A DNA stretch of 33,638 nucleotides from a virus, in the IMG/VR virus record IMGVR_UViG_3300036760_001195, positions 1-33,638 of that record, one strand, 5' to 3'. The notes beneath the pieces are model-generated. The model was not told the origin of the DNA, did no database searches, and was given only the letters and a program-made list of their open reading frames with translations. Made by a program: the position numbers and the translations under genes. This document shows positions 5,538 to 30,631 of this stretch, piece by piece (the stretch's first letter is position 1; every line of letters begins with the position of its first letter).

Positions 5538-6664
5538 TGGGGTTCGAGTCAATTGATAAGAGTCAAGCACTACTAGATCAGGCTCATGGTGTAGCACCAT
5601 CGCCTCCTAGTACTAGTGGCGCTGCGACAGCCGCTGCTAGTTCTGCAACTCAGGCAGGTGCTCAGGCACAACAAGGCATCGGTGCCGCCACTGGAGCAGC
5701 TTCTGGTGCTGCTTCTGGTGCTGCTTCTGGTGCTGCTTCTGGTGCTGCTTCTGGTGCTGCTTCTGGTGCAGTTTCAGGTGCACTAGGGGCATTCACAGGA
5801 GCCCTTTCTGGGGTTGTAGCTACAGTTACAACAATATTTTCTGTTGCTTTAGCTTTTCCAGCAAAATTAGCTGCTGCAATTCATTTACCAACTTTACCTA
5901 AACTACCGATCCCATCGGTTCCGGTTCCTAAAACTCCTTCACTTCCTGGAACACCCGGAGTACCGAGCTTACCGGCAGTCCCTGGTGCACCTAAACTTCC
6001 TGGTTCACCAGCAATCCCGGGTGCACCTGGAATCCCAGGCGCACCAACAGTGGGCAGTGGTGCTTTTTCGTTACCTAAAGTACCTCTTCCATCTTCATTT
6101 TCATTACCTAAGATCGCGGTACCCTCTTTGCCTCAACCTCCTATCCCTGCAGGGTTAAAGCCTCCAGCTGTACGAGTGCCAGTAGAGGTTCCAAAACCGC
6201 CTGTTAGTCCGACCCAGGAAGTTTTAAAGAAGGAAGAAGAAAAAAAAGAAAAGGAGTCTGTGGATCTTACCGAGAAGGAAAAGAAGTGTGTTGCACTTGA
6301 CGATGAGCGTGCTGACATTTTAAATAGGATTAGAGAGATTGGACAGAAACAATCTGATATCCAGCAAAGATTAGATAGTATACCTAGTATATTATCAACG
6401 AATACAGCAGCTCGAGATGCAGCCGAAGTGGGTAGTCCGCGTTTTAATTTATTAAATAAAACAATTGACAGAATACAACAAGAACAAACAGAAAAAACAG
6501 AAGAATTAAAATCCTTAAACGAAGAAGAAAGTAGACTTAAAGTAGATGCTGAGAAGAAAGATCAACAGGAAACAGACAATGGATGTACCCTTGAAGTGAT
6601 ATTTAGCGCAATAAGGAAAAGAAATAGATTGAAAGAAATGAGTTCTCAAAGTTCAACTTCATAA
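5537..6664 (+). CDS. Ala-Ser-Gly repeat, collagen-like Pro-rich and coiled-coil protein
   Basis: The 375-aa protein starts inside the previous stop (TAATG at 5535-5539), with GAGGAG at 5525-5530 as ribosome-binding site. It has four visible parts. Residues 20-52 are Ala-rich. Residues about 53-82 are Ala-Ala-Ser-Gly repeats, followed by a hydrophobic stretch ('VVATVTTIFSVALAFPA', about 95-112) that could be a membrane or packing helix. Residues 118-225 are a Pro-rich, partly collagen-like run ('PGAPKLPGSPAIPGAPGIPG'). The C-terminal half is a highly charged coiled coil with KKEEEKKEKE near residue 235 and three Cys. I recognise no family. The build suggests an elongated structural protein. 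The long repeat region could also vary in length. Confidence 0.7.
   Translation: MGFESIDKSQALLDQAHGVAPSPPSTSGAATAAASSATQAGAQAQQGIGAATGAASGAASGAASGAASGAASGAASGAVSGALGAFTGALSGVVATVTTIFSVALAFPAKLAAAIHLPTLPKLPIPSVPVPKTPSLPGTPGVPSLPAVPGAPKLPGSPAIPGAPGIPGAPTVGSGAFSLPKVPLPSSFSLPKIAVPSLPQPPIPAGLKPPAVRVPVEVPKPPVSPTQEVLKKEEEKKEKESVDLTEKEKKCVALDDERADILNRIREIGQKQSDIQQRLDSIPSILSTNTAARDAAEVGSPRFNLLNKTIDRIQQEQTEKTEELKSLNEEESRLKVDAEKKDQQETDNGCTLEVIFSAIRKRNRLKEMSSQSSTS
5696..5779 (+). repeat. Seven 12-bp tandem repeats encoding (Ala-Ala-Ser-Gly)n
   Basis: The unit GCTGCTTCTGGT is repeated five times without a change (5708-5767). One variant copy flanks it on each side (GCAGCTTCTGGT before, GCAGTTTCAGGT after). 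The identity at third codon positions points to recent slippage or expansion and not to selection on the protein alone. A change of whole units keeps the reading frame. Confidence 0.95.
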
Positions 6665-12400: not shown

Positions 12401-15400
12401 TATGATAGTGATAGAAACGTGTTCTTGGCCGATGGTCTTGCTACACAGTCGAACTACAAACTTGAATACTTCATTGGTGTAGTTAACAGATTGTCCATTA
12501 GGGTACGTGGTACTTTGCAAACAGCACCAGATGTTGATGGGGATAACCCTGTTGTATTTACTAGTAGTGCTGCCAATCCAGAGCCAGGTGATTGGGATGG
12601 CATCATATTTGAGCCATCAAGTCGTACTGGTGCTCCTGGTAACGCATTTATCACTAGCTTTTTGACAAACACAACTGTCAAATATGGTAGAATAGGCATT
12701 CAAAACGATATTTCAGATCCTTCGATTGATCGTTGCCTTATTAAATTGTGTTCAGATGCAGGCTATTCTGTGACTTCTAGTTTCTTCCACAAAGTTGGGT
12801 TCACTAGGTCAGATTTGCGGCTACTAAGTAATGATTTTTCACCAGGTGGCAGGAGCTACGCCGAGAGTCGCAACTTCGGTGAAGGGTATGGCTATGGATA
12901 TGGATATGGTGATGCATACGGCGATGCCTATGGTGACGCTTATGGTGGTGCGGCATCAACACGTACTTTGTCTTACTTGTTAGACAATCTGTTGACCACA
13001 TCTTTGGGTGAGATGCCAACATTCTTCAAAGTTGGTAATCCAGAGCTGTTGAGCAGTGACGTCATTCATACAAGAGGTTTTGAGTCTAAGTATGTTACGG
13101 GCCTACAATCAGGTGTAGATTACGCTGTATATGTAGATGGTACACAGATTGTTCCTGGAATTGATGCAGATTTTGCTCTTGAGTATGATCGTCGTCGTGG
13201 TGGATTCCTATTGTCGTTTTTCAATACATCGCGTACTTTGAATTTCCTTAGCCACATCGGTGCACATCCAGGCAACATTACCATTGACTATTACGCAGTG
13301 TTTGCCAATGGAACGATACGCGATAGTATCTTCAGCGGCAACGGAGATACGGCCATTGATATCAATAACACTGCTTTCTTGGTAATGCGGAACAACACAC
13401 TGGACAGCAATGGTTTTCATGGAATTACGGTTGAGGATTCGTATGCTGTTATCAGTAACAACCTCATCACTGGCTATAACATTGCTCCGATTCTACACGA
13501 TGGTAAGTCAGTAGTAGCGACCACTACCAATGACATGTGGAGTCTGTCTATCACTAATAGTGAGCAGAATGAGATTGCTGACATAGACGAGTTGGTGTTG
13601 AAGATCGACTCTAACGATACAATATTGACTGTTGCTACACCTGCTCTGTATAAGCGTAATAGTGTGATTAAGATTGACGATGAATTCATGCAAATACAAA
13701 ATGTCCTTGGAGATAATATCTCAGTTGTACGCGGATTTAATGATACTGTGCCAACTGCCCATGCTGCAAATGTACAAATCTTGATTCAGCGCATTAAGGT
13801 TATTTTCACAATCAGTGGAATCCCTGGTGAGTTTTGTCAGGTGAGAGAGGTTACTAGTGATGGAGCATTTATACCCAATCGTGTACCAGTGGACATGGTC
13901 AAGATTGATAACAATACGTTTAGAATTGCCTTTTCTGTTGATAGAAGTAGTACGTTTTTCTACAGGTATCAGTTTAAGCGAGAGTTAGCGGATCCGCTTT
14001 GGATAGCAACTGAAACGCGCAGATTTTTCTCTTTCCAGTTTGGCAGTGCAGTAAACAACTTGATCAATCCTAACCACGAAAATAACTTGGTAGTGGGTAG
14101 TCTAGACGATGTCAACTATTCTGATAATCCTGAATATGAGCAGCCAGAATTTGAGGCATTTCGAATTCCAAGTAGTAGCCCTGCAAGTGCTGATAATCCG
14201 ATCTATGCAACGCCGTTTGATCCATCTGAGCAACGTTTACGCTTCTTGGGTAGGCTACCAATTCAGCAGGAGGTTAATCTATTCAACGGTACGGCCAGTA
14301 TAGTTCTAACGTCAACACCTATCATTGTGACCAGCCTACAGAGCGACGTCATAGTGCAGTTGGTAAGTAACCCAACTCGTAGATTGGCAGTGTCATCTTA
14401 CAACAACAGTACGAGAACACTGACTTTGGCTACTCCAGTCACAAGTGCAGATGTTGGGACATATCAGGTAGTGTATAATGCACCGATTACATTGGGTTCA
14501 TCGAGGTCTCCATTTCCACTGGTAACGACTTTGACTTACATTTTCAATGAACAACGAGTGGTAGACTTTACTAAACTTGATTGGAGAGAAACAGGCAGCA
14601 GTGGTAATGTGAAGATACGATTCCGAGTAGCGGGGACTATTGATGATCTGTCTGCTCAAACTTTTAGTGCCTTCGTTGAGGCACCACCTTTCGATTTATC
14701 ATTCGATTCTGATACATTCCCTCGAGGTGCTGCTATTGAGTTTGAGGTGACACTAGAAACAAACGATAGAGGGTTTGCAGCAGATGGCTCTCCACTATTC
14801 CCCAAACTGGAGGATATGTCATTGTTTTTGACGCCAGCTCGAGATAATCTATTGTACAAAGCACTAAGTGTTGTTTTTGACACAAGGGATAAGGTGACGG
14901 TGATCATTATAGAGGACGACCAGAGACAAGGACAGGGTATTCGCAACAGTACGTTCTTAACAGTTGGTTCTGGTGAAGTACTAAGTGCTATCGTTAGAAA
15001 GGCCTCAGATAATTTTGCAGAGAGTACGGAGTTTGTGATAGGTGAAACAGAGGCCATCGCTACAGGTCAGACCTCTATTCGTATTAAGGGTGATGTAACC
15101 ATTGAAAGAACTGTACCATCCGTAAATGATGAAATAGTAGTCGATTATATTTATGTAGATGTGGACGACAAGGAAGAAGTGACGTTCGTAGAAAATGGAG
15201 TGCAAGTGACAGATAACAGGTTTTTGCGTGTTACTAATGTAGCTTCTGTGGTTATTATAGATAAGATTGCGGTAGATCCAGTGGGTGAGCTGTTGAGTAT
15301 TAGTTCAACGTCTCAGCCGGTTCCTGGAGCTCAATACTTAGCTGCATACACTTTTGCAGCCCCTGTTGATGGCGAGATAATCACTACTACTTACACTTAC

Positions 15401-16996: not shown

Positions 16997-19900
16997 ATGG
17001 TCGGACTAGAATATCCTATTAAGCTGAAGCATAAGAACCTTTTACCAGGTTCTGAAATAATCACTGTACCGGGTGGTCAGTTCGATGCTCTGGTCCGAGA
17101 TCAGGATTACACCATTGATTACAAGAATGGCATCGTTACCATTGCATTGGCTGGTATAGTGTCTACCTTACCCCAGGTTCATACTTCTAACGCTGTAGAT
17201 CTTAATATTTCATACCGTCGCAAAGTCAACTTTAGCGAAGAGTTCATATTAGAATCACACATAGAGGTTTTCAACGAGGTGGCAACGGTAAGTGACGTAT
17301 TTAAGTTGACGGTAACGAATGGTCCCGTACTTGATGTGTTCAGAGCTTTTAACCGCACTACAGGTGAGCTATACACAGTTAGTTCATTTTTGAATAAAAC
17401 GATTTTCATTGCAGGTTTTAATACTCCTAGAGCTGTAGATCTGACACGACAGACATCATCGCTGCGTACTCGGGTAATCAGTAGTGGCCAGTTTGATAAT
17501 ACACTTGGTATTATATTGCCTGAGGGTTTGCAACCCGCTAAAGAACATAAACTTACAAGTGTCAATGTTATTCAAGCTGATACCTTATTCAAATTTTTGG
17601 TTCGAGGCGGTGTTGATATCGTAGAGAATATATATGAGATTGAAGTGACGCCTCAAATAACTGGTGTAGAGCTGTATACGGGTAGTACTATTCTTCGTAG
17701 AGCAACACGTCGCCTTATATCAAATGTTGACTTCGTTGCCACCATCAATGCCAATACAATGCTATTAACTGTGACCTTGACTGCCACTGGTAAGATTGTA
17801 ATAGGCAACAATAGTGTGTTTTACAGGTTGAACAAGACCTATCCTATCCAAGGACAGTCATTGTTTGAAGGTGCCAACATTACAGAAAGTGAGCATCGCC
17901 TAGCCTTTGTTGAAGATTTCTTGTCAGAGGTTGTTTCTTTTGGGGCTGATAGCTTAGCACACCTGTCGGGGTTTGAGCCCTTTATTAAAAAGGGGCAAGA
18001 AGTAGATGAGTTTGTATTTCCATCACTTATAGTGACCAACCAGGCTGGTACGATTACTTTTGTGGAAGGCACCGACTATTTGGTAGACACGGCTTTCAGA
18101 AGACTAATCCGTGCATCAACAAGCATTGCACTTCTACCTCATGCAACTGTAAAGGTGATTTATGTGGATCAGGAAGACCTTTTTGCTAACGTCACCATAA
18201 TGCAAGATGTAGTGTTGGTGGACTATGATTATGGTAGTAATGCTTTGAACTGGACTCCTAGTTTTACTGACACTGTTTTTGAAGAGAGAAGAGAGCTAGC
18301 AGAGGATACACGTTTTGTTACCCTGTCACAGTTTCCTGCAAACAAAGAGGTAGTAGTATTCAGAACGTTGGATAACCAACGTGTGCAACAGATCAATGTT
18401 GTCGATGTAGATTTGATCAATAAACGAATACAGCTAGATCCTGTCCCCGCAACAACAACATATATCATTGAATATATAGCACGCGACCAGGTAATCGATC
18501 CAGGCACTAGTTATTTTGTGTCCTATCGATACGGCGCTCGTAAGAGAGCTTTAATAGACAATTTTGCCACCTTACTGGGTATTACTACTGGCACAGTTAC
18601 TCGCACCGAAACATTCGATCTGATCAATGGACAGGGTAAGGTGGCACTGGGTACAGTACCTTCTGACCACACAAGGATTCTGATTTATGCAACAGGTGAT
18701 CCCGATAAAACACCTTTAGCAACTGCAAAAACCTTTGATATATCGACCGATACGTTGTTTTTCACAAATGTGATCAGCGCAGGTAACTATACGATCGAAT
18801 ACCCAGTAGTTGGGTTTCAAACAGAACAGTTGCGTACGGCCATTATTGCTCTACTGCAATCTTTTATATTAGGGCCTACGAGAGAGTCGCTGGTGCTATT
18901 AGTACAGGCATTAACGGGTGTTGAGCCTGATGTTATTGAATCACTCTCGAATGGATTTAATTTAACAAGTGGTACAGATAGTGATTTTTTGAATCCATTA
19001 CCGCCAGTTATTTCGCCACCTCTATCTGATGGAAGTAGTTCTATAGAGTTTGCACCGAGCAGGTTTAATAATGGTGTGTCTTTGAAGGCAGCTAATAGTG
19101 CCTGGATCTCTTACAGTGCTCTTAATAATTTGCGTGTTGAAGAGGGTAGCTTCAGTTTTCTATTAGGTACTTTGTGGGATGGTGATGATGGACGACCTCA
19201 TCACTTGTTTGATATGGTAGGTACCGATGATTTTACTAATAGAATAACGTTATACAAGAACAAAAGAGGATCGTTGGCCTTTGAGATACATGATAAAAAC
19301 TCTAAATTACATCGTGTAACCACCGATATCAATAGGATAGTCCGTAATGAAATCATCTTTTTGGAAGAAGGACAAAGTTCGGTGAGATTGGCTCATTCGC
19401 CAGCATATACTATTGTGGATTTGAACAATAATCAACAGTCGGACATCTTCGAAGCCAACAGAACTGAGTTTATTATTACACCAATATTTGGAGGTATTGC
19501 AGGTTTGGGGCTCAACATTACAACACTTGTTCAGATCAGTGATGACCCAAGCTTTGTTACTCAAGTTGGCCAAGCAGCCGTTGCTGCCAAACTACGAGCA
19601 CTGGCTAATGTCTACGAAAGCCATCAAGGCAAGTTGACGGTACAAACTGAGAAGTCTTTTATAGAAGGATGTCAGCTATTTGATAACGTTTTACTAGAGT
19701 TGGCAGAAAGAGGACATGATGTTCATCTCTTTATTGATCTACCTCAATCTGTGATCTCTGATCAAGAGCGTGAACTGTATATCCTAGAAAGACGTAATTT
19801 GCTGAATGCCATTGGTATCGAAGCAGGTGATAAAGATGGGATAGCAGGAGGATTCGAGATAGACAGTTTTGCAAGTGTTTTTCCTGAACTGGGGTTGGAT

Positions 19901-20614
19901 TATGCAAGTGCTTTTATTGATCCTTTGACAAACGAAGGACTGGTGGATCGTACTGATGTATTTAGGGCTTCGTTGGGCCCTGATTTCTCTATACCAGACC
20001 CTGAAGGGGCACTTGTGTACATGCCAGGTGACGTCAACATTGATTTTCAGAAAAACCCTATGATTGTTCAAAGTTTCATTCCAATCACCAACTCTTTATT
20101 GTCGGCTGCAGCAATGGCAAGGCCTGATGTTATCAATAGTTGGTACTTTGTTGTAAATGTCAATGATTTTACTGTTCCTGAAGCGGTGTTGTTCAATGGT
20201 TGGATAACATCAGTAGTAGATCCGTTAGTGCAGACTGGTAGGGTATTCTGGAGAACACTATCAGGAACTTTGACAGTTTTTAGAGAGTACGAAAAGTTCC
20301 TCGAGATCAATCGTAACAGAGTAAGGTTTGTAACAGGATCCTATGGATCATACGGCGTTTACGGTTACGGTGGGCTGCAGGAAATAAGGGCCTTAACATG
20401 GGACGAAGTGACAAATACTTTGACATTTAATCCTGTGATAGATAAAGCAGGATTCTATCTGTTTAGTTATATTAGTGGGTGGACAAAATTTGAGGAAGCA
20501 GAGCACCTGGTTACAGCAACTTGGAAGTTGCATACTAAAGATGGAGCACCACCTATGGTTAAATTATTTTTAGATGGTGAGCTTGTAAACCACAAAATCT
20601 TTGGAGATTTGTGA
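16997..20614 (+). CDS. Large tail adhesin A with LamG-like domain and deacetylase-like insert
   Basis: This 1205-aa protein starts after AAGGA. Residues 1-600 are repeated beta-domains of the 'DQDYTIDYKNGIVTI' and 'GTDYLVDTAFRRLIR' type, including the unit shared with the 203-aa protein. Residues 610-660 are helical. From 685 ('FAPSRFNNGVSL', 'GSFSFLLGTLWDG', 'NRITLYKNKRGSLAFEI') it reads like the first half of a LamG/concanavalin jelly roll. Residues about 880-1095 interrupt this with a polysaccharide-deacetylase-like (NodB/GH57-type fold) segment, 'LELAERGHDVHLFIDLP'. The LamG part resumes at 1169 with 'HLVTATWKLH' and 'VKLFLDGELV' and stops abruptly at residue 1205. The last LamG strands are missing. 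A Gly-Tyr loop sits at about 1115-1126. The gene 3' end is duplicated in the next gene. Fibre/adhesin is the best call. Confidence 0.68.
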   Translation: MVGLEYPIKLKHKNLLPGSEIITVPGGQFDALVRDQDYTIDYKNGIVTIALAGIVSTLPQVHTSNAVDLNISYRRKVNFSEEFILESHIEVFNEVATVSDVFKLTVTNGPVLDVFRAFNRTTGELYTVSSFLNKTIFIAGFNTPRAVDLTRQTSSLRTRVISSGQFDNTLGIILPEGLQPAKEHKLTSVNVIQADTLFKFLVRGGVDIVENIYEIEVTPQITGVELYTGSTILRRATRRLISNVDFVATINANTMLLTVTLTATGKIVIGNNSVFYRLNKTYPIQGQSLFEGANITESEHRLAFVEDFLSEVVSFGADSLAHLSGFEPFIKKGQEVDEFVFPSLIVTNQAGTITFVEGTDYLVDTAFRRLIRASTSIALLPHATVKVIYVDQEDLFANVTIMQDVVLVDYDYGSNALNWTPSFTDTVFEERRELAEDTRFVTLSQFPANKEVVVFRTLDNQRVQQINVVDVDLINKRIQLDPVPATTTYIIEYIARDQVIDPGTSYFVSYRYGARKRALIDNFATLLGITTGTVTRTETFDLINGQGKVALGTVPSDHTRILIYATGDPDKTPLATAKTFDISTDTLFFTNVISAGNYTIEYPVVGFQTEQLRTAIIALLQSFILGPTRESLVLLVQALTGVEPDVIESLSNGFNLTSGTDSDFLNPLPPVISPPLSDGSSSIEFAPSRFNNGVSLKAANSAWISYSALNNLRVEEGSFSFLLGTLWDGDDGRPHHLFDMVGTDDFTNRITLYKNKRGSLAFEIHDKNSKLHRVTTDINRIVRNEIIFLEEGQSSVRLAHSPAYTIVDLNNNQQSDIFEANRTEFIITPIFGGIAGLGLNITTLVQISDDPSFVTQVGQAAVAAKLRALANVYESHQGKLTVQTEKSFIEGCQLFDNVLLELAERGHDVHLFIDLPQSVISDQERELYILERRNLLNAIGIEAGDKDGIAGGFEIDSFASVFPELGLDYASAFIDPLTNEGLVDRTDVFRASLGPDFSIPDPEGALVYMPGDVNIDFQKNPMIVQSFIPITNSLLSAAAMARPDVINSWYFVVNVNDFTVPEAVLFNGWITSVVDPLVQTGRVFWRTLSGTLTVFREYEKFLEINRNRVRFVTGSYGSYGVYGYGGLQEIRALTWDEVTNTLTFNPVIDKAGFYLFSYISGWTKFEEAEHLVTATWKLHTKDGAPPMVKLFLDGELVNHKIFGDL
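19634..20280 (+). other. Degenerate polysaccharide-deacetylase-like domain in adhesin A
   Basis: 'LTVQTEKSF' (residue 880 on), 'ERGHDVHLFIDLP' (905-916) and 'GGFEIDSFASVFPELGLDYA' follow the order of deacetylase-like motifs. As I recall them, these are L-T-x-D-x-E, G-H-D-V-x-L-H-x-H-P and G-G-x-x-x-D-x-x-x-x-x-L-x-x-L-G. The first-motif Asp is Gln883, and the paired metal-binding His positions are Phe912 and Asp914. If the alignment is right, the metal site is lost and the domain probably binds and does not hydrolyse. Confidence 0.4.
20338..20374 (+). repeat. Gly-Tyr-rich loop in adhesin A
   Basis: The stretch encodes GSYGSYGVYGYGG between a strand ending 'RVRFVTG' and one starting 'LQEIRALTW'. 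It is the shortest of the four Gly-Tyr segments in the window. Confidence 0.85.
20573..20614 (+). repeat. Left copy of 42-bp direct repeat (3' end of gene A)
   Basis: It encodes the final DGELVNHKIFGDL and stop (TGA) of gene A. The right copy at 21631-21672 encodes the same 13 residues and stop (TAA). The copies differ at 6 of 42 bases, all synonymous: GAG/GAA, CTT/CTC, GTA/GTG, TTG/CTA, TGA/TAA. An 18-base core around AACCACAAAATCTTTGGAG is identical. GGAG at 20603-20606 serves as ribosome-binding site for the nuclease gene. Confidence 0.97.
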
Positions 20615-21672
20615 TGGTAGAAAAGAAAAATTTACAAGAGACCAAAGAATATGTTCAATCATTTGGATATGCCTTATTGTCACAATATAAAAATGCTCGT
20701 ACCAATCTTGACATCCAGTGTGACAAAGGACATAGATATGAGGCAACATGGAATGGTTTTCAACAAGGCAATCGTTGTCCATATTGCTCAGAGAAAAAAG
20801 TAACCTATAGTCAGGTCAGGGAGCATATTGAGCAACAAGGGTACTTCTTACTATCACAACAATACAAAAATAATAGTACTAAACTTGATGTCCGATGCAA
20901 TAAAGGGCATAAATATGAAGTATCTTGGAGTAATTTTCGACAGGGAAGTCGTTGTCCATATTGTAATAAAAAGAAAGTAACCTACCAGCAAGTTAAAGAT
21001 TATATTGAACAACAAGGTCATTATTTATTGTCGTTAAATTATACAAATAGTAGCACCAATCTTGATTTTGAGTGTAAAGAAGGACATCGGTACCAAATGA
21101 CTTGGGACAGGTTTAAACAAGGCTGTCGTTGTCCTACTTGTGGCAATAAAAAGAAAGGATCGACATTGCGACTCACTTATCAATATATTAAAAACCACAT
21201 TGGACAACATGGTTATGTCTTGCTATCAAAACAGTATAAGAATAATAATATTAAGCTTAATGTACAGTGTAATAAGAAACATCAGTATAAAGTGACTTGG
21301 GGTGATTTTCAACAAGGATGCAGATGTCCAAAGTGTAATGAATCTAAGGGTGAAAAGAAAATTGCTGAAATCTTAATTAATTTTAATTTACCCTTTATTA
21401 GACAACATAGGCTGGGTGATACTCAATTAAGACTTGATTTCTTCATTCCTTCTCTTAATCTTGGGATAGAATATGACGGACAACACCATTTTGAACCAAC
21501 TCGATTTGGTGGAATATCAGTTGACAAAGCTATAAACAATTTTAAAGAGCAGCAACAAAGAGATAAAAGCAAGAATAGGGTTTGTAAAGACTTAGAAATA
21601 AAATTGATCAGAATTCCTTACAATCAAGCAGATGGTGAACTCGTGAACCACAAAATCTTTGGAGATCTATAA
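20614..21672 (+). CDS. Homing endonuclease 1: four zinc ribbons plus EDxHD/Vsr-like nuclease
   Basis: This is a 352-aa free-standing nuclease. ATG at 20614 overlaps gene A's TGA and has GGAG 7 bases upstream; the GTG at 20611 is less likely. Four repeats of about 55 residues follow the pattern LLS-x(2-3)-Y-x-N-x(4)-L-x(3)-C-x(2)-GH-x(4)-W-x(2)-F-x-x-G-x-x-CPxC (about 20650-20800, 20815-20985, 20986-21170, 21175-21345). They are probable DNA-binding zinc ribbons; the fourth has KH in place of GH. The nuclease part has E247/E252, D275 ('LRLDFFIP'), 'GIEYDGQHHF' (E286, D288, H291, H292) and 'QRDKSKN' (D317), the arrangement of EDxHD (I-Bth0305I-like) or Vsr-like enzymes. After 'KLIRIPYNQ' the C-terminus is replaced by a copy of gene A's last 13 residues. 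AT-richer codons than the neighbours suggest transfer. It probably cuts alleles lacking it at the A/B junction. Confidence 0.85.
   Translation: MVEKKNLQETKEYVQSFGYALLSQYKNARTNLDIQCDKGHRYEATWNGFQQGNRCPYCSEKKVTYSQVREHIEQQGYFLLSQQYKNNSTKLDVRCNKGHKYEVSWSNFRQGSRCPYCNKKKVTYQQVKDYIEQQGHYLLSLNYTNSSTNLDFECKEGHRYQMTWDRFKQGCRCPTCGNKKKGSTLRLTYQYIKNHIGQHGYVLLSKQYKNNNIKLNVQCNKKHQYKVTWGDFQQGCRCPKCNESKGEKKIAEILINFNLPFIRQHRLGDTQLRLDFFIPSLNLGIEYDGQHHFEPTRFGGISVDKAINNFKEQQQRDKSKNRVCKDLEIKLIRIPYNQADGELVNHKIFGDL
21631..21672 (+). repeat. Right copy of 42-bp direct repeat (3' end of nuclease 1)
   Basis: This recoded copy of the gene A terminus forms the C-terminus of nuclease 1 in the reading frame used in A. It ends in TAA directly before the ATG of gene B. 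See the left copy for the differences. Confidence 0.97.
21661..21664 (+). promoter_or_regulatory. Ribosome-binding site of gene B within the repeat
   Basis: GGAG lies 8 bases before the ATG at 21673, inside the codons for Gly-Asp of the repeated peptide. The same four bases in the left copy precede the nuclease start by 7. The duplicated segment therefore carries both a protein terminus and the translation start signal of the following gene. Confidence 0.65.
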
Positions 21673-22416
21673 ATGCCACTTATTGTACCTGCTGTAGGAC
21701 ATCTAAGAGCAGTTCTCATCAATAATAATGCTGAGAAAACGAATGATCCTATTGTGGATCTTATCCTTAGTGCACAGGGTGCCACGCTAATGCTCCTTAG
21801 TAACAATGAAGACTTTGTGGGGGCTGTATGGGAGCCATATGTCACAGCAAAAGAGTGGATATTGGACGATGATCAAGTTGGTCCAGGTTTTGGAGACGGT
21901 GAGAAAGCAGTATACGTAAAATTCAGCAGCGGCTTAGTAGAGTCTTCTATATATACTGCTATTATTATTCTAGATACTACACCACCAATTGTCGGTGCAA
22001 TACCTATACTAATTAATGAAGGTGATCTTGAGGTTACTACAAGAGATGTCATTTTAACTTTTAATGTATTGGGAGCAACAGTGGTTGAGCTTTTTAATGA
22101 AAGTGAGCTTGAGAATACTCAGGGGACTATTTTACCATACAATAATACAATTTTTTGGAGATTATCTAAAAATAATGGTCGAAAGACTGTACTAGTTGTA
22201 TTTATTGATGATGCGGGTAATCGCTCATCTTTTTTCAGTGCTACTACTATATTAACAAATCAGGCAGTAGGTTTCCCTTCAGCAATTGCACTAAGCGATG
22301 CAACAACAGATCACTTTATAACCTTAAATGGTACAGGTGATCCTGAGGCAATAATTCAAGTTCTTATTGATGGTTATGGAGGAGAGGGATATGGTTATGG
22401 ATATGGTTATGGATAA
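21673..22416 (+). CDS. Ig-like repeat adhesin B ending in a Gly-Tyr run
   Basis: The 247-aa protein starts immediately after the nuclease stop and in the same frame (TAA ATG). Residues 14-95 match the well-known bacterial/phage Ig-like repeat. 'LRAVLINNNAEKTNDPIV' is followed by a 'GATLMLLSNNEDF' strand, 'AVWEPYVTAKEWIL', 'DGEKAVYVKF' and 'LDTTPPIVG'. A second beta-domain covers about 95-195 ('KTVLVVFIDDAGNRSSFF'). The last segment 'DHFITLNGTGDPEAIIQVLI' begins another Ig-like domain. It ends 2-3 strands in, with DGYGGEGYGYGYGYG and a stop. The protein is therefore either truncated inside a Gly-Tyr loop or deliberately tipped with it. Adhesin or fibre segment by domain content. Confidence 0.65.
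   Translation: MPLIVPAVGHLRAVLINNNAEKTNDPIVDLILSAQGATLMLLSNNEDFVGAVWEPYVTAKEWILDDDQVGPGFGDGEKAVYVKFSSGLVESSIYTAIIILDTTPPIVGAIPILINEGDLEVTTRDVILTFNVLGATVVELFNESELENTQGTILPYNNTIFWRLSKNNGRKTVLVVFIDDAGNRSSFFSATTILTNQAVGFPSAIALSDATTDHFITLNGTGDPEAIIQVLIDGYGGEGYGYGYGYG
22373..22413 (+). repeat. Gly-Tyr-rich C-terminus of adhesin B
   Basis: Degenerate TATGGN hexamers encode YGGEGYGYGYGYG followed directly by TAA. A slip of whole hexamers would lengthen or shorten the tip without a frame change. Confidence 0.9.
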
Positions 22417-22427
22417 AGAGGATATAA

Positions 22428-24164
22428 ATGGTTGATACGACTTCACCTTTTACAATTGCAAATCCTGCAGGTGGTATATACTTAGAAAATACTGTGATTG
22501 CATTGACACCATATACAGATTCTTCACAAGCCTCTGTTGATATTAGTGCTGATGTATTTTGGCAACGATATGTACAATCGGCAGAGGGGATATATGATGT
22601 CACAACTCGTTGGAACCTTGCTGGGATGAATCCTGATTGTATACATGTAAGATTTTTTGATCCAGACAATAGACAAACTCCATTATTTACATCACCTGGT
22701 GAGTGCAATAATATAGCAGCACCTATAACTAATAATACTACAGCCTTACAAGAGGCATACGATCGTGGTGATTTTTCTATTATGATCAATGGTTGTGATG
22801 CTGTAGATGATATGGGTTTTACAATTAAATCATTATTTCAAGATAATGGTGATCCTATTCCGTTTACAGAGTATCAACCTGGTAATATTTATGTTAATCC
22901 CGAAGTAGGAATGTTTATGTTTTTTCATTTTCCTGATAAGTGGGACACATGCTCCTATTGGGATTTTTCATGGTGGGATAACGGGACCTTATCAGACTCA
23001 ATACTTACAAAACCACCTTATATAACTAACTGGGATACTGTATTAGATACGCTACAGTCCGTATCGTCAATTACAAGGTTAGGTGCGACAGCAACCGTAA
23101 TAACGGTAGGCAACCATGGTTTTGTAACAGGTGATACACCTGGTATTGTAGGGGCTGATCAACCAGAATATAATGGTACACACATTATCATTGTAACTGG
23201 GCTCACTACATTCACATATACTGTGTCTGGATCGCCTATGACTCCTGCAACTGGCACCATTACAACGAGCAAGGGTATTCCAATCCCCTTTACAATGTCT
23301 GGCTGTGAGTGGGATGGGCAGGTCATCCCAGGATGGGCAGAAGCCAATTGGGATGACCTTGATAATCCAATTCCCATCAATACCTATTGGGATACTGTAA
23401 GCGAAGCACCTGCAGAGGGTGCAAATGTAGTCGTATGTTATTGGACCCAGGATAATACAAATCCGTTGGAACAACCAGATGATACAACTCCAAACGTAGC
23501 GAACAGTTATCGATCACACTTATTCACGTCACCGATAACAGTCACAACCTTTACACAGTTGCGTTTTCGTGGTATTGATGCTGTTGGTAATATTGAAAAC
23601 ACAAAAATAGAAACATATGAAACAGGTCTTCGCCTATCTTTGGTGAAAGGAGTGAATCTGATTTCACAGCCTCGTGTACTATCAACCGTAGATGCAAATT
23701 TATCAACATTATTTAGTGGAATGAATTTATTGCAGATTTATCGTGTTGAAAACGGATTATGGCAAGTGTTCGTCCCTGACTCAGGTGTCCTGAATGATTT
23801 TGATAAAATAGATAATCAGCATGGGTTTTTTGTAATTATGAATGGCCCTGATACGTTTTGTATCCCCTATGGAGAATTGCCAATAACTACAACTTTGACT
23901 ATAACAGATAAAGATATCAATCAAGGATTCAGTGCTGTTGGTGTGCCGAGAAAGAGTACAGCAGACAATTCAATTAACAATTTGTTGGATTCTAGGGCAA
24001 TTCAATTTGAAGAATTATTTAGGGTAACGAACAATGTATTTGAGACATATATATTTGGCAGGTCTAGTGCCTTAAATTTTAATCCTTCTGACTTAACACC
24101 TGGAAGAGGCTATGGTGTTGTAACGAGTCGAACGCAAGTATTTGAACTACCATTTATTGATTAG
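22428..24164 (+). CDS. Multidomain tail adhesin, 578 aa
   Basis: AGAGGA precedes the ATG. Residues 1-35 'TTSPFTIANPAGGIYLENTV' match the start of chitobiase-type/bacterial Ig repeats. Residues about 35-210 are Trp- and Asp-rich ('CSYWDFSWWDNGT') and not assigned. Residues about 214-283 are a beta-domain ('NHGFVTGDTPGIVGADQPEY', 'TFTYTVSG', 'PATGTITT') that recurs in gene D at about 753-820. Residues about 380-575 resemble the secreted-protein repeat around 'LSLVKGVNLISQPR', 'LLQIYRVENGLWQVFVPDSG' and 'HGFFVIMNG'. It is an adhesin-like chain of binding modules. There is no signal peptide, as expected for a virion protein. Neighbouring genes have the same build. Confidence 0.63.
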   Translation: MVDTTSPFTIANPAGGIYLENTVIALTPYTDSSQASVDISADVFWQRYVQSAEGIYDVTTRWNLAGMNPDCIHVRFFDPDNRQTPLFTSPGECNNIAAPITNNTTALQEAYDRGDFSIMINGCDAVDDMGFTIKSLFQDNGDPIPFTEYQPGNIYVNPEVGMFMFFHFPDKWDTCSYWDFSWWDNGTLSDSILTKPPYITNWDTVLDTLQSVSSITRLGATATVITVGNHGFVTGDTPGIVGADQPEYNGTHIIIVTGLTTFTYTVSGSPMTPATGTITTSKGIPIPFTMSGCEWDGQVIPGWAEANWDDLDNPIPINTYWDTVSEAPAEGANVVVCYWTQDNTNPLEQPDDTTPNVANSYRSHLFTSPITVTTFTQLRFRGIDAVGNIENTKIETYETGLRLSLVKGVNLISQPRVLSTVDANLSTLFSGMNLLQIYRVENGLWQVFVPDSGVLNDFDKIDNQHGFFVIMNGPDTFCIPYGELPITTTLTITDKDINQGFSAVGVPRKSTADNSINNLLDSRAIQFEELFRVTNNVFETYIFGRSSALNFNPSDLTPGRGYGVVTSRTQVFELPFID

Positions 24165-24172
24165 GTAAAAAT

Positions 24173-27100
24173 ATGGTTACAACTGTTATCAAAACTATAA
24201 AACCAGCCGGAGGCGGTGACTATACTGACCTCAATGCTTTTGAGTTAGCAGAGAGGCAGAATCTTGTCACGAATGACAGGATATTGGTTGCTGAATGTTA
24301 TTCAGGAGGGAATCTAGCAACAGGTAGTATCCAGTTTGACAGTGCTAATTGGACTATGGACAGCACACATTATGTAAGTATAACTGTAGCTAATGGCCAT
24401 GAACATGCTGGTGTTTATGATACAGCTAAAGCCTATGCTGAGGTTAGTGGTGTAACATTGGGTTCTGCAGTTATAGATTTTAAGAATATTGATTTTGCAA
24501 GAATTGAAAAGCTCCAAATAAGAAAGGCTGATACCACTACTGGTTCGAGATGGACAACGTTGTGGACAAGTTCAAGTTCTAGTGCAGCATATTATATGAA
24601 TCGCTGTCTTTGTGTCAATGAAGGAGACAACGAGGCTGCAATACGTATTATTGGAGGTGGGGCTGGCGCTAGTCGTCATATTATCAAAAATAGTATACTT
24701 ATAACACATGGAACTTCTAATACAGCAATACAAGAAATCGCTTCTGGGGGTACATGTAATATCAGACTGCACAATAATACCATCATTGGTGGTATTACTG
24801 GTAGTGGTGGAGGAGACATCCTCACTAGAAATAATTACATTAAAGCTCGTCCAAGTACTGGATTTTGTTATGACGTGAGCTTTGGTAGCACATTAACACA
24901 AGGTGCTGACGATGCTACAAGTACTACAGAGAGTTTGACAGTAGGACTACGAAATGTAGCGTATTCAACTACTAACTTTGAGAACGTGACAAGCGGCAGT
25001 GAAGATTTGCATCTTAAGTCTGGTTCAGTACTGATTGATAATGGTAGTACGTTAACTGGATTTGTTAATCCGTTGGCCAATGTCACTGAGGACTGGGAAG
25101 GTGATACTCGTCCGTTCGGTAGTGCCTATGATATTGGTGCTGATGAGTTCGTTGTGACACCTCCAGTAGCAGATTTTTTTGGTGTACCCACATCTGGTAC
25201 TGCTCCATTGTTGGTTAATTTCACAGATACGTCTACGAATACCCCGACATCTTGGGCCTGGGACTTTGGTGATCCTGGCAGTGGAGTAAATAACACTTCT
25301 GTTCTACAGAATCCATCACACACATTTAGTAGTGCAGGTAGTTACACTATATCGCTAACATCTACTAACGGCGGTGGATCTGATAACGAAACAAAAACCA
25401 GCTATATCGTCGTTGTGCCGCCTGCACCTGTAGCAGACTTCAGTGGAGTACCAACGTCTGGGGCTGTGCCTCTGTTGGTTAACTTTACTGATTCGTCCAC
25501 TAATGTCCCAACGTCTTGGGCTTGGAACTTTGGAGATCCAGGAAGTGGGCCAAACAATGTATCGACCTTACAGAATCCGTCACATACCTATAGTACTGTC
25601 GGTACTTTCACGGTATCACTAACATCAACCAATGCCGGTGGTTCAGACAATGAGACTAAGACAAACTACATCGTAGCTACACCGCCACCACCAGTAGCTA
25701 ATTTTAGTGGCGTTCCAACTTCAGGCGTTTTGCCGTTGGTGGTCAATTTTACTGACTCATCTAGTAATACACCTACTTCTTGGTCATGGGATTTTGGTGA
25801 TCCGCCAAGTGGAGTAAACAACACATCAACTGCACAAAATCCATCACACACATATAATATTTCAGGTCTTTACACAGTAATACTGACCGCGACTAACGGT
25901 GGTGGGTCTGACAATGAAACAAAGACCAATTATATCACCGTAACTGCTCCACCAGGTCAGGCAGATTTTACTGCAATACCAATATCGGGCAATGCTCCAC
26001 TAAATATTCAGTTTGTCGATTTATCGGGCAATTCGCCTACTTCTTGGTTGTGGGATTTTGGTGATCCTGCAAGTGATAGTGAAAACACAGCGATTATACA
26101 AAATCCATCACACGTTTATGTTAATCCAGGTGTATACTCGATTACATTAACTGCTACTGGTCCTGATGGTTCTCAAGTCAAGACAAGACATAACTACATC
26201 ACAGTTTTGATCTCACCACCAATAGCTGATTTTTCTTTTACACCTATTGTGGGTTTCGTTCCGCTAACTGTAACATTTGCTAACGAGTCTACCAATTCAC
26301 CCGTTTCATTCTTGTGGGATTTCGGTGATGGAGCGACATCAGTAGAAGTAAGTCCTACACATATTTATACTGAGGCAGGTATATTTAATGTCACACTGAC
26401 AGCGACTAACACGGCTGGCTCAGACGACAAAGTATTGAGCCTCGAAGTATTGCCGATACCAGATCTGGTTGCTGATTTTATCACTGGCAGCATGACGTCA
26501 GGCAGTATTGTGGTAGAGTTTATTGATCAATCTACCGATGCATTAGCTTATGCGTGGGATTTTGGTGATCCTGGTAGTGGACCCAATAATGTGTCTACTA
26601 TACAAGGTCCTACACACACCTATACTACGGCTGGTTCATATCAAGTGATGTTAACAGTTACTCATGGCCCATTCGTGGATGTAGTGTGCAAAAACATATT
26701 AGTCACTTTGGAAGTCGCACGCTTCCAAGAGATTTGGGGGACTGCAAGGTTTGCTAATGGTACTCCTGTTGATCCTAATAGGGTAGTCCAGACAAGTAGG
26801 ACCATTAGCGCTAGTGAGTTTGAGTGTGGTGGTGACTCGACAGATTCTTTCCACGTCTACAGAACTATAGACGATGGTGGGGTGACGCGATATCTGGTAA
26901 GAGGGCGAGGAAACACACTAGGTGTTCCGGATAGTGGGTTCCAAGATGGAGAACCCGTATTCGTATATATAGGTGGTCGGTTGGCCACAACTACTGGGGG
27001 TGTGCCTGTATCTGTACCATTTTTCCAGACTTTGCCTTCTAATCCAAAGAGCCACATTGAGCTAGACCTAGTATTTCCATCTGCTGTAACAACCATCTCT

Positions 27101-28405: not shown

Positions 28406-29718
28406 CAAGTTTCGTTTGCGTACAGGTTTTTTCACAGCCACTCACGGTGGTCATCAGGAGTCCAACACACAGAATCCCTGTGTGTGACACATCGCCACTT
28501 TTGATATTTAGCACTATTGGTAGGGATAATGTGTGTGGCCAACCTGATTGCGTACGAGTTTTCATTGATAATGTTGAAGTGCCCGTGAGTAGGGTTGGTG
28601 AGGCCTATGGATATGATCAATATGGTGCTGATGGTTTCCCATTCGGTGCTTTTAAAGAGGCCTACAATGATGCCTATGGGTATGGCTACGGGTTTGGATG
28701 TGAGCTCAAGTTCGGTTATGGGTATAGTGGTGATCCTTACGGTTATGGTGCAGACGACAATGATGACACATATGGTGCAGACAGATTGCCAGGGGTGCTT
28801 CATATTTTCCAATTGCCAGTAATCCCGAATGGACGACACAGTTTGAGGGTTGTGGTACGCAGTACGTCAGGGTTAGAATCAGAGGCAACAGAGTATTTTA
28901 TTGTTGATAGTGAGCCGCCTGTGGTTACTATTGCTTCACCACCTAACGATACTATAAATCCTGTGATTGAAATTCCCGTACTTCAGTACACAATTGAAGA
29001 TTTTTCAGGTGTCTTAAGTGCCGATGTCATCATTGATGGTGTAGATTATGGATGGTTGCCATCTGGTACTTTATTGGACTTTTTGAAGAGTGGCCTACAT
29101 ATACTGACAATTGTGGCACACGACATAGCCACTCATGGTTGCCCCGAGGGGAACATAAGTTCCACTACTATCCGGTTTAACCTATTGAAGCCTATTGAGG
29201 TGAAGGTAGGAGACGCATTCTACCTGGGCACTGATGCCCTTACACAGACTAGGCCAGTGGATGGTATTATTGAGGAATTTCGCGTCCTCAATCGACTATC
29301 AACAGAGGCCAACGTACTAGACGAGTTTAGGCTACTTAGGGAAAAGATAGGGTGTCAGCTACGTAAGGGTGCAGCTATCATAAGCCCTAGTGAGGCGTTC
29401 ACCTTGCAAAATCTTGGTTTGCGGTCTGAACGTATTAATTTACCAGAACAAACCCTTGTGTTGTGTCATTATGATAATAACGTAAGGAGTCTATCTGGTA
29501 TAGACAACCGCGATGAAAATGGTGTGGGAGTTAATCTATCTAACCCTGAGAACCAAATTATTGATGAGCTTGCCGCTGGTCGACGTGTTGATGTAACTGT
29601 GAAATTTAATGAAGGTCAGTTTATAGATAGAGAATTAATCAGAGAATTAGTTCATAGGGTAGTGCCCGCATTTGCTGAAGTTAGCATAGTGTTTGAGGAG
29701 GTCCCAATACGGGTATAA
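28402..29718 (+). CDS. Tail adhesin C: Ig-like domains with Gly-Tyr loop and orphan LamG C-terminal strands
   Basis: The 438-aa protein starts with an ATGA overlap of the previous stop. Residues 1-165 form an Ig-like domain with an inserted Gly-Tyr/Asp-rich loop (about 68-130) between 'CVRVFIDNVEVPVSRVG' and 'LPGVLHIFQLPVIPNGRHSL'. Residues 170-258 are a second Ig-like domain ('DSEPPVVTIASPPND', 'GLHILTIVAHD'). Residues 269-300 ('GDAFYLGTDAL', 'VDGIIEEFRVLNRLS') look exactly like the last strands of a LamG domain, yet the LamG beginning is absent from this gene. The rest (300-438) includes 'QTLVLCHYDNNVRSLSG' and ends with 'RELVHRVVPAFAEVSIVFEE', similar to closing segments of baseplate-linked tail proteins. 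The missing LamG half is in gene A. Confidence 0.66.
   Translation: MTSFVCVQVFSQPLTVVIRSPTHRIPVCDTSPLLIFSTIGRDNVCGQPDCVRVFIDNVEVPVSRVGEAYGYDQYGADGFPFGAFKEAYNDAYGYGYGFGCELKFGYGYSGDPYGYGADDNDDTYGADRLPGVLHIFQLPVIPNGRHSLRVVVRSTSGLESEATEYFIVDSEPPVVTIASPPNDTINPVIEIPVLQYTIEDFSGVLSADVIIDGVDYGWLPSGTLLDFLKSGLHILTIVAHDIATHGCPEGNISSTTIRFNLLKPIEVKVGDAFYLGTDALTQTRPVDGIIEEFRVLNRLSTEANVLDEFRLLREKIGCQLRKGAAIISPSEAFTLQNLGLRSERINLPEQTLVLCHYDNNVRSLSGIDNRDENGVGVNLSNPENQIIDELAAGRRVDVTVKFNEGQFIDRELIRELVHRVVPAFAEVSIVFEEVPIRV
28600..28790 (+). repeat. Long Gly-Tyr/Asp-rich loop in adhesin C
   Basis: About 60 residues are rich in YG, AYG, YGYG, DAYG and YGAD units and interrupt an Ig-like domain. It is the longest of four such segments and the most diverse in sequence. 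TATGGN and GATGCN words recur at DNA level. Confidence 0.88.
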
Positions 29719-29719
29719 G

Positions 29720-30631
29720 ATGGGAGCAGATAATCGAAAACTAACAATAGAACAAATTCGTCCTTTATTCCAAAAGAGAAATTATACTTTATTATCTAGT
29801 GAGTATATTAATACCCACTCTAAGTTAAAATTTATCTGTCCTAATGGACATAGGGGTGAAATATCGTGGGTATGTTTTGGCCCTCGTAGACAAGGCTGTT
29901 CAGCATGTTATGGCAATAAAAAAAAGACGATTCAAGAGACACAAAAGGCTTTCAAGAAAAGAAAATACATTTTATTGTCTTCTGAATATGTAAATTGTGA
30001 TGTAAAGCTCAGCTACACTTGCCCAGAAGGTCATACAGGGCAAATCAGCTGGAACAATTTTAATCAAGGTCAGGGTTGTCCTATCTGTTACGGCAATGCT
30101 AAGGTCAATATAGAACAGATTCGATTCTTTTTTGAAAAAGTAGGTTATAGTTTATTATCGTCTGATTGTCTTAATAACAGTGATAGACTTTATTATATGT
30201 GTCCCAAAGGACATCGAGGACAGGTAAGTTGGAATAATTTTAGTCATGGTCACCGTTGTCCACAATGTTATGAGTGGAAAAATCAAAAGAGATTGGGGGA
30301 AGTTTTGGAACAGCTTTTTCCTGGTAAAGTTAAACGACAAGATAATTTAGAGTTTTTAAAACGCCAAAAGGTGGATTTTTCCATTCGTGATCTAAGGCTG
30401 GCTTTTGAATATGACGGTCAGCAACATTTTAATCCTGTGCGATTTGGTGGTATATCACAAAAAGAGGCTATCTCTCTTTTTAAAAACATGGTTCGCCTTG
30501 ATAAACAAAAAAATAAATTATGTCAGGAAAATAATATTCGTCTAGTTCGTATTCGGTATAATGAGCCACTAACTATAGAGTATATTAAAAGTAAAATAGA
30601 GCAAATGAGTATTGGAGAACAAGTAAAATGA
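29720..30631 (+). CDS. Homing endonuclease 2: three zinc ribbons plus EDxHD/Vsr-like nuclease
   Basis: The 303-aa protein is a paralogue of the nuclease at 20614-21672. ATG at 29720 is one base after gene C's TAA; an in-frame TTG at 29693 would add nine residues and is less likely. GAGGAGG at 29695-29701 is 18 bases away, so initiation may rely on coupling. Three zinc-ribbon repeats have 'CPNGH', 'CPEGH' and 'CPKGH' followed by (Q)GCSAC, GCPIC and RCPQC pairs. The nuclease part has D219 ('KVDFSIRD'), 'AFEYDGQQHF' (E230, D232, H236) and D261 ('RLDKQKN'). It keeps a 20-residue C-terminal helix after 'RIRYNE' that nuclease 1 lacks. The codons are AT-rich. Its stop overlaps the start of gene D (ATGA). 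It is probably a mobile gene inserted between C and D. Confidence 0.83.
   Translation: MGADNRKLTIEQIRPLFQKRNYTLLSSEYINTHSKLKFICPNGHRGEISWVCFGPRRQGCSACYGNKKKTIQETQKAFKKRKYILLSSEYVNCDVKLSYTCPEGHTGQISWNNFNQGQGCPICYGNAKVNIEQIRFFFEKVGYSLLSSDCLNNSDRLYYMCPKGHRGQVSWNNFSHGHRCPQCYEWKNQKRLGEVLEQLFPGKVKRQDNLEFLKRQKVDFSIRDLRLAFEYDGQQHFNPVRFGGISQKEAISLFKNMVRLDKQKNKLCQENNIRLVRIRYNEPLTIEYIKSKIEQMSIGEQVK

Follow-up and report, generated by a model that had tools for sequence, protein, structure and literature searches.

A silently differing duplicate of a gene end flanks a putative Vsr-type homing nuclease gene in a viral genome

Introduction

How can a free-standing nuclease gene settle between two tightly packed genes and leave both of them whole? 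The window analyzed here, a viral sequence of 33,638 nucleotides (IMG/VR record IMGVR_UViG_3300036760_001195), raises this question. A nuclease gene (nuclease 1) separates gene A from gene B, and the end of gene A occurs on both sides of it, once as the present end of A and once as the end of the nuclease (Table 1). The two copies differ in DNA sequence and encode the same residues. Here, we describe this arrangement, the empty junctions in related contigs, similar cases among other nucleases, and the mechanism that probably produced it.

Table 1. Features of the A/B junction in the window.
Feature	Coordinates	Strand	Description	Basis
Gene A	16997..20614	+	Virion/tail-region protein, 1205 aa; putative target gene; ends in left copy	ORF; homologs in L003, L006, and L008
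Left copy	20573..20614	+	Present last 13 codons of gene A and TGA	Sequence
GGAG	20603..20606	+	Shine-Dalgarno-like; 7 nt before nuclease ATG	Sequence
Nuclease 1	20614..21672	+	CapR/treble-clef zinc-finger repeats and predicted Vsr/EDxHD-type nuclease domain	Pfam, PHROG, AlphaFold, Foldseek
Right copy	21631..21672	+	Last 13 codons of nuclease 1 and TAA	Sequence, structure model, tail length
GGAG	21661..21664	+	Shine-Dalgarno-like; 8 nt before gene B ATG	Sequence
Gene B	21673..22416	+	247 aa; directly 3' of A in empty-site relatives	L003, L006, and L008

Results and Discussion

The Duplicated Gene End

The initial annotation described the last 13 codons and stop codon of gene A as recurring in frame at the end of nuclease 1 with six synonymous differences, and this description proved exact. 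The left copy reads GAT GGT GAG CTT GTA AAC CAC AAA ATC TTT GGA GAT TTG TGA, and the right copy reads GAT GGT GAA CTC GTG AAC CAC AAA ATC TTT GGA GAT CTA TAA. Both translate in frame to DGELVNHKIFGDL followed by a stop codon. All six differences among the 42 nt are silent, two of them in the TTG/CTA codon pair and one in TGA/TAA, and the 21 central bases are identical. A repeat finder delimited a core of 37 nt (20572–20608 versus 21630–21666; 92% identity), 5' of which the flanks of the two copies are unrelated.

The probability that six random substitutions in 42 nt are all silent is ~3e-5. In the left copy, the last codon and stop codon (TTGTGA) overlap the start of the nuclease gene (TGATG at 20612–20616) and may be a leader of the inserted element, in which case only three silent differences are left within the core. 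These three lie in consecutive codons (GAG/GAA, CTT/CTC, and GTA/GTG), and three random substitutions placed within the first 12 codons would all be silent with a probability of ~0.006.

Nuclease 1

The ATG of nuclease 1 overlaps the TGA of gene A by one base; the start chosen by the ORF tool is a GTG at 20611. The protein matches CapR and DUF4379 in Pfam and belongs to phrog_559 (E=3e-83). A PDB sequence search gave nothing useful. For the AlphaFold model (pLDDT 89.7), the first three Foldseek ranks are Vsr (1cw0 and 1vsr) and I-Bth0305I (3r3p), with prob 1.00 and E values of 0.002–0.04, and the modeled catalytic domain has a Vsr/I-Bth0305I-type fold. Six residues (D276, E287, D289, H293, D318, and K321, in the pattern D, E-x-D-G, H, D, K) are invariant in 30 aligned sequences, an assignment made from the alignment rather than by residue-by-residue mapping onto 3r3p. 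The PHROG label for this family, which also contains a second nuclease of the window (29720–30631), is "HNH endonuclease"; judging from the modeled fold of nuclease 1, this label looks wrong. A group I/II intron-encoded endonuclease was considered and rejected because no intron RNA family was matched up to E=1 at 19500–23000.

Nuclease 1 has a tail of 16 aa after the conserved RIxY motif, and 13 of these residues are derived from A. In 117 other family members, this tail has a median length of 17 and a minimum of six residues, so that nuclease 1 without its A-derived end, with a tail of 3 aa, would be shorter than every scored homolog. The A-derived residues are modeled as a C-terminal helix (342–352; pLDDT ~65–77). 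Nuclease 1 thus appears to have lost its own tail and to use the stranded end of A instead.

Genes A and B in Relatives With an Empty Junction

Gene A has no match in Pfam and PHROG searches. Homologs with 60–61% identity are present in three IMG/VR contigs (L003, L006, and L008), and gene B is 54% identical to its L003 homolog. In all three contigs, B lies directly behind A, the end of A is present as a single copy, and the nuclease is absent from the junction; a nuclease profile search of these contigs gave no match. Such presence and absence at one site is the pattern of a homing endonuclease gene (HEG). The earlier proposal of a mobile nuclease gene inserted at the A/B junction is supported by these relatives, none of which has both copies at its empty site. 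Searches found no DNA-level relatives of the window in phage or plasmid records and no protein relatives of gene A in phage records or bacterial genome contigs, and there is thus no close empty site for comparison.

The GGAG motif in each copy sits in the codons TTT GGA GAT of A, and it is also found 5' of B in L003, L006, and L008 with a spacing of 9–11 nt. The predicted ribosome-binding site of B and the last codons of A are therefore one sequence, and an insert at this position must duplicate the segment to keep both genes whole. For the second nuclease of the window, located between genes E and F, the insertion site is an ordinary intergenic one without a terminus duplication; the L006 contig is empty there and has a separate intergenic leader/spacer of ~20 nt. 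This second nuclease is of the Vsr/CapR type, and its last codons (GGAGAAC...) may hold the ribosome-binding site of F.

Gene D of the window (1410 aa) contains four tandem 264-nt units of 88 residues each (25158–26205), like repeated virion-protein domains. Glycine/tyrosine-rich stretches of the GYGYG type (12880–12942, 22377–22415, and 28678–28702) occur in several virion-gene products, including the C-terminus of B, and most of this stretch is absent in gene B of L003. A 12-nt tandem repeat of low complexity (5615–5788) encodes (GAAS)n.

Survey of Related Nucleases

Flanking repeats were scored for 127 non-redundant nucleases of this kind from IMG/VR and phage records. Thirteen of them had z > 8, and the next score was 4.2. 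After filtering of these outliers, six cases were accepted, namely the window and five others. The rejected outliers were tandem nucleases (two in L042, one in L055), presumed intron repeats (two in L071), neighboring paralogs (L155), and an intergenic, probably promoter, repeat (L127). In L042 (2678–5322), each of the two tandem nuclease genes is preceded by a common leader/terminator-like sequence (91% over 141 nt). In L071 (2636–5671), a split gene contains successive nuclease ORFs, and the repeats that surround them, GGGTAAAGCTAAATAA... and TAGTAAGAAAGACTAAGTCC..., resemble group I intron cores.

Two of the accepted cases, the window and L034, involve the 3' end of a gene. In L034, the nuclease gene has the opposite orientation; NWSIPTIAGAVRKA is the present end of the terminase gene, and the stranded WSMPTIAGAVRR beyond the nuclease keeps a terminator-like hairpin. 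The only site that is unanimous among relatives is a Met/Ile site (Met in Jenst, EZ-2018a, and a B. tequilensis contig), and the copy that now completes the terminase is the odd one there; the other sites are split. The remaining four cases (L031, L039, L056, and L081) are mirror images at 5' ends, with an RNA-ligase-like target gene in L031 and a peptidyl-tRNA-hydrolase-like one in L081. In L039 and L056, the latter being the weakest accepted case with a short repeat, the duplicated gene start forms the N-terminus of the nuclease, mirroring the window. The duplicated junction of L039 comprises the end of the upstream gene and the start of the downstream gene, comparable to the window. Within the first 26 coding bases, its copies show a single base difference, indicating that strong recoding is not required everywhere. 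For polarity, the relatives of L031, L056, and L081 are too distant to be decisive, and no phage relative of L039 was found.

These results also bear on whether the duplication in the window could be a convergent similarity arising by chance or the product of a chimeric assembly. The window is a metagenomic contig, for which such errors may be considered, but its repeat scores z = 15.7 against Markov-shuffled flanks (4.2 for the top HEG outside the outlier group), both reading frames are intact, and the arrangement recurs in independent contigs. An origin of this kind is highly improbable.

Polarity of the Two Copies

Four of the six differences are informative with regard to L003, L006, and L008, and the relatives match the right copy at all four and the left copy at none. 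As in the right copy, the GAA/GAG site is GAA in two of the three relatives (GAT in L003) and the last Leu codon begins with C in all three. The Val/Met codon is ATG throughout, with the third base of the right copy, and the stop codons are TAA or TAG, with its second base. Over the whole segment, the left copy has 15, 10, and 12 mismatches to L003, L006, and L008, respectively, compared with 12, 6, and 8 for the right copy. These patterns suggest that the right copy is more likely to be native, stranded beyond the insert, and that the left copy was recoded or imported. Support for this likeliest polarity is moderate: four sites correspond to a one-sided P of 1/16 under equal rates, two of the four lie in the possible leader TTGTGA, and the relatives are only ~60% identical. 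A related phage is a possible source of the left copy, in line with an origin from two related phages.

The initial annotation held that the nuclease carries its own copy of A's end. The duplication itself stands, and the assignment of the right copy as the carried one is probably reversed. Under the original assignment, the right copy arrived from a related phage as the C-terminus of the nuclease, and the left copy is native and has been changed only through drift and its fusion with the start of the nuclease. The left copy is indeed continuous with A, its last two codons were perhaps remade by the insertion (the TGATG overlap), and the relatives are distant. However, the GAA/GAG and GTG/GTA sites within the core also point to the right copy as native, and the odd copy at the unanimous site of L034 is the one completing the terminase. 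Moreover, nucleases of this family have a tail of ~17 residues of their own, and a tail acquired from another gene before insertion would be an extra step. Taken together, we regard this reading as unlikely.

Another explanation is a simple target-site duplication. One insertion would have copied 37–42 nt of A through a staggered break or template slippage, followed by drift. Consistent with this, the two copies resemble one another more than they resemble any relative and share their 21 central bases. Yet a right copy freed from its role in A should gain amino acid changes, which is difficult to reconcile with six silent differences, and all four informative changes are on the left, constrained copy. 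The first objection is weakened by partial constraint on the right copy, which contains the ribosome-binding region of B and encodes a nuclease helix. We consider a simple duplication quite unlikely overall.

Proposed Mechanism

The arrangement is probably the result of a homing gene that entered the end of A, brought a recoded end with it, and left the native end stranded as nuclease tail and ribosome-binding site of B. A free-standing gene for a Vsr-fold homing endonuclease would cut within the last codons of A and insert there. At the start of the inserted block, the portion of A located 3' of the insertion point would be present in a silently differing version, making A complete again. The native end would come to lie beyond the nuclease gene, where it would still provide the ribosome-binding site of B and also encode the last 13 residues (the C-terminal helix) of the nuclease. 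Since the re-supplied end would otherwise rebuild an uncut junction, its silent differences may have a protective role, preventing self-cutting and also lowering loss by recombination between the repeats. Prevention of self-cutting, also suggested in the initial annotation, would be compatible with the geometry of the insert. The model is supported by the independent parallel in L034, the mirror images in L031, L039, L056, and L081, and a precedent of the same polarity in fungal mitochondria.

More generally, the Vsr/CapR phage homing nucleases may include a natural cleave-and-rescue class, in which the enzyme targets a gene terminus, a recoded restoring end escapes cutting, and the displaced end becomes part of the nuclease, such that the elements are interlocked. 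We offer this generalization tentatively and with some doubt. The model predicts that the empty junction and the native end are cut and the carried end is spared; one enzyme and three DNA substrates suffice for an assay. If true, the mechanism would explain how free-standing homing genes can settle in tightly packed genes without splicing, by bringing the missing piece with them. It would be a phage counterpart to the mechanism reported for fungal mitochondria, and recoded gene drives would have a natural model in it. It also serves as a warning that gene ends adjoining homing genes may be of foreign history.

Comparison With Known Systems

The initial annotation regarded the arrangement as not known in this form, but it has been published for mobile ORFs of fungal mitochondria. 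In Glomus, endonuclease ORFs lie near the 3' ends of atp6, atp9, cox2, and nad3; a diverged, inserted C-terminus completes the gene, and the native C-terminus, stranded downstream, is closest to empty-site relatives, with largely silent differences (Beaudet et al., 2013; PMC3630166). The atp6 gene of Allomyces macrogynus, as cited in the same paper, follows the same logic, and C-terminal duplications near endonuclease ORFs are described in a second fungal mitogenome paper (PMC6279837). As in these fungi, the nuclease in the window has a copy of the gene terminus on either side. The fungal enzymes are of the LAGLIDADG or GIY-YIG type and mitochondrial, whereas the window has a predicted Vsr/EDxHD-type enzyme in a phage. 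Unlike in the fungal cases, the probably stranded end in the window forms the modeled C-terminal helix of the nuclease and the predicted ribosome-binding site of the next gene, and the phage set includes mirror-image cases at gene starts. The new elements are thus the Vsr-type enzyme, the phage host, the probable reuse of the displaced end in the nuclease, and the mirror-image forms.

Among phage systems, the free-standing homing endonucleases of T4 are placed in intergenic regions by a review whose searched passages do not mention duplicated gene ends (PMC2988022); the searched passages of a phage HEG survey (PMC10448857) do not mention them either. No phage precedent was found in the open-access literature. 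Like the T4 seg and mob enzymes, nuclease 1 is not intron-encoded, lies between conserved structural genes, and is expected to convert empty sites. In the fold of its modeled catalytic domain and in the conserved acidic and His residues, it matches I-Bth0305I and the EDxHD homing endonucleases. I-Bth0305I is intron-associated, whereas the window has no intron RNA match and nuclease 1 carries a CapR-type finger array. Engineered cleave-and-rescue and recoded homing drives couple a nuclease to a part of its target that carries silent recoding. The window shares this pairing of a nuclease with a silently recoded target piece; it differs in being natural, with a putative protection from cutting.
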